A program made the position numbers and the translations under genes. 64,000 nucleotides of DNA, taken from assembly GCF_014524565.1 (NCBI RefSeq), contig NZ_CP060139.1:124001-188000 (forward strand). Reading direction: 5' to 3'. Below, piece by piece: positions 62,585-64,000 of the stretch (the first letter of the stretch is position 1; every line of letters starts with the position of its first letter). The notes under the pieces are model-generated. The model had not been told where the DNA came from. It made no database searches and saw only the letters and a list, made by a program, of their open reading frames with translations. This DNA is from Croceimicrobium hydrocarbonivorans. Lineage in GTDB: Bacteria > Bacteroidota > Bacteroidia > Flavobacteriales > Schleiferiaceae.

Positions 62585-64000
62585 TTATTTTACAATCTTA
62601 ATCCAAAGATCTCCAGTATAAGAACCATTCAGTCGGCTAGACTTAGCTTGGTCTGCTTGCTGATAGTTGGTAAACTTATACAGGTAAACATAGAAGAAAT
62701 TATTGCTAGGATCTTGGAAGATCTGAGCGTCAATTCCTTGACTGTTTAAGCGGTTTTTCAAGCGAGTGGCATTGCCTTGCTCACCAAATACACCAGCAGT
62801 AACATAGTATCCTGGTGAACCTGGGCTCACATTAGAAGCTCTGTTCTCAGGAGCATAATCCTGTGGATTGGTATTGCCGGTATTACCCGTATTCGGGTTG
62901 TTGTTATCCGGCTGGTAATTGTTGTTCGGGTTGTTATTCATGTTCTGATCACGCTGATTCTGCAGATCGCGCATGGTATTTCCACCCTGATTACCACCTT
63001 GGTTTCCACCATTATTGGTTTGGTTGTTAGGAGCATTATTCTGAGCATCCTGACGCATACGTTCTAACTCGGCCTCCATTTTCTTTTTCTCTTCTTCCAG
63101 AGATTTGGCCAATTCGTCTTTGTAATTGTCTTTAAACTCTTTAATCTTCTCGTCAATAGTTTCTTCAGTTTCATCACGCTGACGACGAAGATCATGCTTA
63201 ATGCGTTTCACTTCATTCTCCAAACGCTCATTCTCCTTATTACTACCGAAGCGATAAGTCAACATAAACTCATGACTGGTACCAAAGCTACTAGCGTAGG
63301 TATTAGTAGAAAAGTCATAAGCATACCCAAGAGTTAATTGCTCAGATAAGTTTAAACCGATATTGGCAGTTACTCCATAGCTAGAACGATACATAGCACC
63401 TACATAACCGTATTCTACCATATTGTAAAGCAATCCTGCATCAATTTGTACGGGTACTCCTTCTGCAGCACGAACCATAGCCATGGGGCTAAGAATTTGC
63501 TTATCGCCAGCGAATTTGAAATCGTACTGAGCAGATACTACATAGTGACGAATCAAATTATAGTTGATATCACTAGGATTAGTAGCGTAAACAATGCTCT
63601 CACTAAAAATCTGAGGAGCGGCAAAACCCAAGGTAAAATCGCGAACCATTAAGCTTAAGCCCAGGTTCATATCGAAGGTACCACGGTTAGGTGCTACAAC
63701 GGTGAATACATCACCAGCATCGCGAGCTCTAACCCCACTTTGATCAATAGTCTGATTGATATAACCAGCACCTAAACCTCCAGAAAGGCTAATATCCTTA
63801 GTTAACTGTACGTGATAAGCATAATTACCATACACACCTAAACGGCTCAGGATATCGGTTTTATCGGAGAATCCATACACACTCCAACCAACACTTCCAT
63901 CATTCATGGCACCGTTTACAGCTAATGCAGAAGTTTCGGGAGAACCCTGGATTCCGCTCCACTGACGACGGTGTAAAATAGTGGCTTCGGTTACTCCTCC
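62585..64000 (-). CDS. PorP/SprF family barrel fused to coiled coil and SPOR domain (5' end outside window)
   Basis: The frame is open to base 64000; the upstream residues read ATILHRRQWSGIQGSPET, the well-known N-terminal region of PorP/SprF type IX secretion membrane proteins, so the ATG at 63907 is internal. In the visible 471 residues an outer-membrane barrel (to about 260) is followed by a long charged coiled coil (about 265-330), an Asn/Gly/Gln-rich linker of about 85 residues, and a C-terminal SPOR domain (YYVTAGVFGEQGNATRLKNRL) that binds peptidoglycan. It would tie an outer-membrane barrel to the cell wall, perhaps near the T9SS or gliding apparatus (inference). Confidence 0.88.
   Translation of the reverse strand, partial: GGVTEATILHRRQWSGIQGSPETSALAVNGAMNDGSVGWSVYGFSDKTDILSRLGVYGNYAYHVQLTKDISLSGGLGAGYINQTIDQSGVRARDAGDVFTVVAPNRGTFDMNLGLSLMVRDFTLGFAAPQIFSESIVYATNPSDINYNLIRHYVVSAQYDFKFAGDKQILSPMAMVRAAEGVPVQIDAGLLYNMVEYGYVGAMYRSSYGVTANIGLNLSEQLTLGYAYDFSTNTYASSFGTSHEFMLTYRFGSNKENERLENEVKRIKHDLRRQRDETEETIDEKIKEFKDNYKDELAKSLEEEKKKMEAELERMRQDAQNNAPNNQTNNGGNQGGNQGGNTMRDLQNQRDQNMNNNPNNNYQPDNNNPNTGNTGNTNPQDYAPENRASNVSPGSPGYYVTAGVFGEQGNATRLKNRLNSQGIDAQIFQDPSNNFFYVYLYKFTNYQQADQAKSSRLNGSYTGDLWIKIVK

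Follow-up and report, generated by a model that had tools for sequence, protein, structure and literature searches.

The gene that crosses the right edge of the window (the whole stretch of 64,000 nucleotides analysed here, C1:124001-188000 of a genome that consists of one contig of 4,035,598 bases) encodes a PorP/SprF barrel fused to a C-terminal SPOR domain. From comparisons of sequence and gene order, this fusion is probably a dedicated carrier (shuttle) of a type B surface protein of the T9SS that brings its own cell-wall tether in cis. Three features lead to this reading: the tail has no cysteine, no PorE-like gene adjoins the fusion gene, and a wall-type domain is found on the carrier's own tail. 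The signal by which type B T9SS proteins glide or stay is a question raised in 2022-2025 (PMC9143113, PMC12618676, PMC12635249). With the carrier and its proposed wall tether joined in one chain, the static-anchor model becomes directly testable.

The open frame runs past the window edge, and the window thus cuts the gene. Read from the genome, the complete gene is an intact ORF of 516 aa at window coordinates 62585-64135 (minus strand), which supplies the missing 5' end. The first-pass annotation had described a PorP/SprF barrel, a coiled coil, an Asn/Gly-rich linker and a SPOR domain in one frame, and this is borne out by Pfam, NCBIfam and AlphaFold2. The order along the chain is signal peptide (by eye), PorP/SprF barrel, charged helix, Asn-rich linker and SPOR domain (Table 1).

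Table 1. Features of the PorP/SprF-SPOR gene in window coordinates, with residue numbers of the complete protein
Feature	Coordinates	Strand	Basis and remarks
PorP/SprF-SPOR gene, in-window part	62585..64000	-	Pfam and NCBIfam; first 45 residues beyond window edge
PorP/SprF (FadL/PorV-like) barrel, residues 46-296 in window	63248..64000	-	Pfam, AlphaFold2, Foldseek
Charged helix, residues 300-365 (66 residues)	63041..63238	-	AlphaFold2 model, composition
Asn/Gly/Gln-rich linker, residues 366-441 (76 aa, 26 Asn)	62813..63040	-	Model, composition
SPOR domain, residues 442-515	62591..62812	-	Pfam, predicted fold, structure searches

In Pfam, PorP_SprF (PF11751) matches residues 21-294 with 196.8 bits against a cut-off of 22.3 (6.8e-58), and SPOR (PF05036) matches residues 440-503 with 28.8 bits against a gathering cut-off of 21 (1.5e-6). 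In NCBIfam, 208.7 bits against a cut-off of 90.55 for TIGR03519 place the protein in the PorP/SprF family. PorE-type domains (TPR, beta-propeller, CRD, OmpA-like) are absent from it by Pfam, and it is therefore not a PorE. An AlphaFold2 model of the whole protein (80-row alignment) has a mean pLDDT of 75.9 and a pTM of 0.52. As read from this model, the barrel has 14 long strands and two short ones, and it is predicted to be a 14-stranded barrel of the FadL/PorV type. Its best Foldseek match is 8gl6_F, from an in vitro assembled T9SS complex (E 6.5e-8, TM 0.40/0.55), a chain that we take to be PorV; FadL structures and 6h3i_F are the next best. By sequence, the whole protein has no full-length match among solved chains and eight weak partial matches (best E 0.048), mostly in the coiled part. 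Behind the barrel, the model places the helix and a compact C-terminal domain at the limits given in Table 1, with pLDDT below 50 at residues 364-425. By arithmetic the helix would be about 10 nm long if straight, and helix and linker together would give the SPOR domain ample reach. The C-terminal tail should be periplasmic, as judged from the even number of predicted strands and by analogy with the gliding carrier SprF, whose C-tail Cys-X-Cys is disulfide-bonded to periplasmic GldK (PMC12635249). The earlier view that the C-terminus faces the periplasm is thereby supported.

A frameshift, two adjoining genes or a chimera were considered as sources of such a frame, and these artefacts are ruled out by intact orthologous ORFs. 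The fusion protein finds a match in 36 of 39 genomes (its own and those of relatives). Within the family of the window, 23 of 24 genomes searched, its own included, carry barrel and SPOR end in a single gene (exception G011); outside that family, in the same order, the fusion is present in 3/15 genomes (G024, G027, G034). Since orthologues keep the fusion, it is not a frameshift artefact. Among the 26 orthologous ORFs read out, one is cut by a contig end. The gene of G022 is split across two contigs, and G006 has a second, shorter copy whose SPOR scores 20.0 against the Pfam cut-off of 21. Relatives are encoded at 119 places in named records; the best 80 were kept, corresponding to 77 distinct loci. 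These are mostly titled Schleiferiaceae, Cryomorphaceae, Owenweeksia, Flavobacteriales or Bacteroidetes and include two Ichthyobacteriaceae MAGs; cultured carriers of the fusion are Schleiferia thermophila DSM 21410, Phaeocystidibacter luteus LMG 25704 and Thermaurantimonas aggregans LA. SPOR is present in 76 of the 77 loci, a count that is partly selected because SPOR sequence contributed to the search patterns, and the sole miss (L133) has runs of N there. The prospect that close relatives would reveal two genes divided by a stop or frameshift has thus failed to materialize. The tails after the barrel are 136-258 residues long in the 77 loci, and none of these loci shows a cysteine in the sequenced portion of the mature protein.

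On a tree of barrels, all 24 SPOR-type rows (23 plus the split L066) fall on one side of one branch with an SH-aLRT of 99; the tree was made by a quick method with a midpoint root and carries long-branch warnings for L194, L069 and others. Convergent fusion of SPOR in different families is not claimed, as the barrels of SPOR-fused PorPs form one lineage in the tree. This lineage spans several families: the rows that do not come from named records belong to f1, f2, f3 and f12, which are families of the window's order, and to f22, a family of the same class. Nine long candidates from other families were scanned by Pfam, and four pass the SPOR cut-off. The five that do not, together with the unscanned L187, are SPOR by iterated profile only, so Pfam alone would miss some members. 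Two PorPs of family f3 (L183, L184) apparently have two tandem SPOR-like domains by iterated profile; in Pfam, one stretch passes in L183 and none in L184. The PorP of G025, of the same order (L066:3138-6934), has an alanine-rich coil and loses its frame inside near-identical repeats. The ORF that follows it ends in a stretch that is SPOR-like by eye and not by Pfam, and the break may be real or an assembly error. The fusion of G034 (L069:4665-6155, minus strand) is a divergent PorP-SPOR with a transposase-like frame upstream (by eye). The first reading took PorP/SprF proteins to be barrels and normally nothing more. This is true of most relatives seen, but there are PorP-OmpA fusions too.

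The predicted C-terminal domain has the SPOR fold. Modelled alone, it reaches a mean pLDDT of 95.1. A profile search of solved structures gives CwlC at 5.6e-7 and FtsN at 0.045. Foldseek finds CwlC (E 2.3e-4) and DedD (0.014), with RlpA and FtsN at ranks 8-9 (E 0.07). A second structure aligner puts 6ozd, a putative exported protein, on top (Z 9.5), then CwlC (7.1), RlpA (6.8), DedD (6.7) and DamX (4.8); the row after DamX has Z 3.9, and FtsN has 3.1. The domain is thus like the SPOR domains of RlpA, FtsN, CwlC and DedD in fold and sequence family, and differs from them in lacking the glycan-contact Gln and Arg and in being borne on a beta-barrel. SPOR domains recognise denuded glycan, which is enriched at the septal ring, and in RlpA the glycan is contacted by the side chains of Q270, R302 and R309, with F274 as a hydrophobic contact (PMC6895207). 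When the sequences are aligned by eye, the strand-3 position of RlpA Arg309 corresponds to Tyr482 of the fusion protein and the Q270 position to T446, so the RlpA-type contact side chains are not found at these two places. Of 29 ordinary SPORs (three from the same genome and the rest from the best-scoring loci of relatives, up to a limit of 30 loci), 26 have Arg or Lys at the strand-3 position, while it is Tyr in 31 of 33 PorP-linked SPORs and basic in 0/33. At the Q270 position, PorP-linked SPORs have T, V or I; the conserved Gln is missing from both PorP-linked and ordinary SPORs. In 59 close orthologues, picked by hand out of the 80-row alignment, position 482 is Tyr in all, position 484 is Tyr or Phe in all, Lys487 is kept in 54 and Lys513 in 58, and the F274 position is F or Y in 59/59. 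Such counts are not independent, because the PorP-linked SPORs are one lineage. On these residues, PorP-linked SPORs look like a separate subfamily. Binding of peptidoglycan by the SPOR domain of the fusion is plausible but not assured, since Q270 and R309 are not kept.

The altered face could mean that the ligand has changed. The SPOR-like domain would then bind a protein (for example the GldJ/GldK track, PorE or another carrier) or an undescribed glycan, and the carrier would be a coupling device instead of a wall anchor. The signature of Tyr482, an aromatic residue or His at 484, and mostly Lys487 and Lys513 is absent from the ordinary SPORs compared, and the tails of L185-L187 (family f3) extend 711-816 residues after the barrel, seemingly beyond the need of a simple tether. 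However, SPOR-fused PorPs have no tail cysteine and the known bond to the track is not possible for them, in contrast to OmpA-fused PorPs, which have 8-10 (by eye, in the TSP3 region). In separate lineages OmpA also takes the place of SPOR, an indication that the wall is the ligand they share. We regard a changed ligand as rather unlikely.

Targeting to the septum or the new pole, by which SPOR would recognise denuded glycan at division sites and place the cargo there, is improbable. It would agree with the SPOR fold, with the retained aromatic residue at the F274 position and with the ligand reported for SPOR domains (PMC6895207), and also with the place of the locus: the cargo-carrier pair is near purH and mreB, mreC, mreD, pbp2 and rodA (L006:9418-16422, past the right edge of the window; names by eye). 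These genes, however, belong to elongation and not to division, and of 83 loci, mostly taken with 6 kb flanks, only 18 show MreB, in a set that includes some genomes twice (eight extra loci partly duplicate named-record loci). Among the neighbours read at the locus, no division gene was seen (names by eye). A septal address is not supported because the residues said to confer it are replaced, the basic residue by Tyr. Of the two sites offered in the first-pass annotation, the septum thus loses ground, and the cell-wall tether fits the published proposal that static type B carriers are held on the wall by PorE, a separate lipoprotein (PMC9143113, PMC12618676).

The gene order points to a role of the barrel in secretion of a particular kind of protein. 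A single nucleotide separates the stop codon of the upstream gene from the start of the carrier. The upstream gene encodes a 991-aa protein with matches to CHU_C (2.5e-21, Pfam) and TIGR04131 (2.8e-13, 49.8 bits against 35) and with an Ig-like domain, Ig_7, just under the cut-off (25.2 against 27.3 bits); by these matches it is classed as a T9SS type B substrate. The earlier term 'T9SS-like' was therefore too weak for a gene directly behind a type B cargo gene. With a profile seeded on the upstream genes of this fusion family itself, a type B C-terminal domain (CTD) is found upstream of the fusion in 75 of the 77 named-record loci; contig ends cut the remaining two. A homologue of the cargo is found in 81/83 loci. 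The match often covers most of the cargo, and identity is mostly lower than for the carrier. No type B cargo gene is found in the 3.8 kb upstream of the G034 fusion (L069), and none was found upstream of L188. Cargo and carrier were paired by gene neighbourhood only. A T9SS is present: the genome encodes SprA (2598 bits), and GldK, GldL, GldM, GldN, PorU and GldJ all score over their cut-offs. The genome encodes 21 CHU_C proteins against three strong PorPs, from which we infer that the fusion carrier may serve more than one cargo. By position, 20 of the 21 CHU_C genes are orphans, with no strong PorP adjoining; clusters of five and three such genes (C1:1685272-1703387 and 3744237-3751547) have no strong PorP alongside. 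The OmpA plan consists of a barrel, a linker and a wall domain, and the fusion might be read as a general OmpA- or Pal-like link between outer membrane and wall, with no dedicated secretion role and an incidental cargo neighbour; the shared plan and the surplus of CHU_C proteins over PorPs would allow this, but a type B gene lies directly upstream in 75/75 named-record loci with upstream sequence and TIGR03519 is well over its cut-off, which makes such a general link very improbable.

Known carriers suggest how a cis tether would work. PorP-like carriers bind type B proteins (PMC9143113). In Flavobacterium johnsoniae, the tested type B proteins needed their cognate carrier, and the pair was held to set the final location (PMC12618676). 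The static cargo there shares an operon with a PorE homologue, while those called dynamic do not; yet the CTD of Fjoh_1123, which is one of the dynamic group and comes from an operon without PorE, gives mostly static foci, so a PorE gene in the operon does not strictly go with immobility (PMC12618676). PorE ends in an OmpA-like domain that was crystallised with a peptidoglycan fragment (PMC7192894). SprF of F. johnsoniae resembles the fusion in having a PorP/SprF barrel directly behind a type B cargo and a periplasmic C-tail (PMC12618676, PMC12635249). In contrast to the Cys-X-Cys of SprF, the 220-residue tail of the fusion ends in SPOR and has no Cys-X-Cys; a link of the SprF type is excluded, since there is no cysteine in the fusion protein or in the sequenced mature parts of 77 orthologues. 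PorP with PorE in Porphyromonas gingivalis, and Fjoh_3951 with Fjoh_3950, are proposed wall-held type B carriers like the fusion (PMC9143113, PMC12618676, PMC7192894), but their wall domain is OmpA-like and sits on a second protein, whereas the fusion has SPOR on the carrier itself. A parallel in plan is a PorP fused to TSP3-OmpA, seen in three PorPs (L067, L190, L191; two by Pfam, L191 by motif). All three lie behind type B genes and have a wall-type domain in cis on a carrier barrel. Their wall domain and linker are different, and the tree does not place their barrels with those of the SPOR-fused PorPs; PorP-OmpA fusions arose separately from SPOR fusions. One of them (L067:2537-4168, minus strand) is behind a giant type B cargo, with an NlpC/P60-type lipoprotein-like gene next downstream (by eye).

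In the proposed mechanism, the 991-aa cargo would pass through the SprA translocon. The PorP-type barrel would take it by the type B C-terminal domain, hold it outside and depart from the translocon. Inside, the chain would continue from the C-terminus of the barrel through the helix and the flexible linker, by which the SPOR domain would reach the peptidoglycan. SPOR bound there would keep the complex of carrier and cargo stationary, and the fusion may thus fix a surface protein in place and not let it glide. One chain would then do the job proposed for two, PorP plus PorE. The genome also has, away from this locus, two frames that resemble PorE (by eye, with a TPR-like start and an OmpA end); these could act in trans, which casts some doubt on a tether in cis only.

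The component parts and the idea of a PorP-PorE wall anchor are already known. The cis tether and the range over which it occurs, together with the changed face of SPOR and the classes of tail described below, appear new: no PorP-SPOR or PorP-OmpA carrier was recognised as described in a literature search in which subscription journals and preprints were mostly outside the scope. In the portions available, PMC6851124 and PMC10710014 treat no PorP-SPOR fusion, and PMC9950754, which counts 15 porP-like genes in F. collinsii, has no mention of SPOR.

The presence of a PorE neighbour was compared with tail type across PorPs of the phylum, Bacteroidota. Of the 395 genomes sampled, 91 had a match at 1e-10, with at most three candidates scored per genome. 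Among the matches listed, 12 PorPs with frames of at least 450 aa (the window's excepted) and 80 further places in list order were taken. With the addition of L066 and L067, 95 untruncated PorPs were compared; the own-genome PorPs L007 and L008, a second PorP of 391 aa at L067 and two places with internal stops were left out. A PorE-like frame is directly downstream of 64 of 72 unfused, non-CxC, type-B-linked PorPs, a count in which six calls are short or partial frames. The other eight plain PorPs are without PorE as well. No PorE-like frame follows the fused type-B-linked PorPs (0/13: nine SPOR, one SPOR-like split, three OmpA), where the 12 long PorPs had little sequence downstream (966-2578 bases), or the CxC ones (0/2). 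In the 77-locus set with the additional eight, some of them duplicates, PorE adjoins 0/80 SPOR-fused, type-B-linked genes. PorE was found by profile, an earlier motif search having found fewer; of six calls checked by Pfam, four show OmpA, and in the short frames L200 and L251 nothing but TPR or PD40 is seen. Classes were assigned in the precedence SPOR, OmpA, CxC, and CxC was sought only in tails shorter than 80 residues, so the lack of overlap between tail classes is partly by construction. Because the SPOR-fused barrels are one lineage, the exclusion of PorE amounts to two or three events. The OmpA fusion needs two changes on the barrel tree, and the starred branches force one. There are one to three independent pairs, with one on well-supported branches, and for that pair the expected direction is obtained in 0.6 of 200 draws and no difference in 0.4. 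A strong statistical claim of PorE exclusion was dropped for want of independent pairs.

Tentatively, and with more doubt than we attach to the carrier itself, the tail may be read as an address code. A Cys pair would direct a carrier to the gliding track, a short end of the form ...PR[FY][FY] to docking with a wall-held separate PorE, and SPOR or OmpA to an anchor in cis. PorP-linked SPORs would then be a subfamily in which an aromatic wall-binding face (Tyr482/484) replaces the Arg cluster by which denuded glycan is read, and grips peptidoglycan outside the septum. With tails so varied by nature (Cys pair, PR[FY][FY] end with PorE, SPOR, OmpA), the fate of an adhesin might be predictable from sequence.

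The C-termini were compared in rows L183-L274, L007 and L008. Of the unfused PorPs with a PorE-like gene downstream, 65/66 end in P[RK][FYL], typically SPRFF or SPRYF. The same end is found in 7/15 unfused PorPs without PorE and in 0/16 that are fused or CxC. It is possibly a docking peptide for PorE, and common descent could also explain it. A further PorP lies between PorU and GldJ (L007:7384-8466; L316-L333) and has two cysteines about 12 residues apart in its C-tail, with a C...CP.F end. Both cysteines are kept in 13/13 relatives, a count from which five of 18 regions were left out because they hold another PorP and GldJ was not seen in the region; those five other PorPs likewise end with two tail cysteines. 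The GldJ-adjacent PorP is a candidate track-linked carrier, with a cysteine spacing unlike the Cys-X-Cys of SprF.
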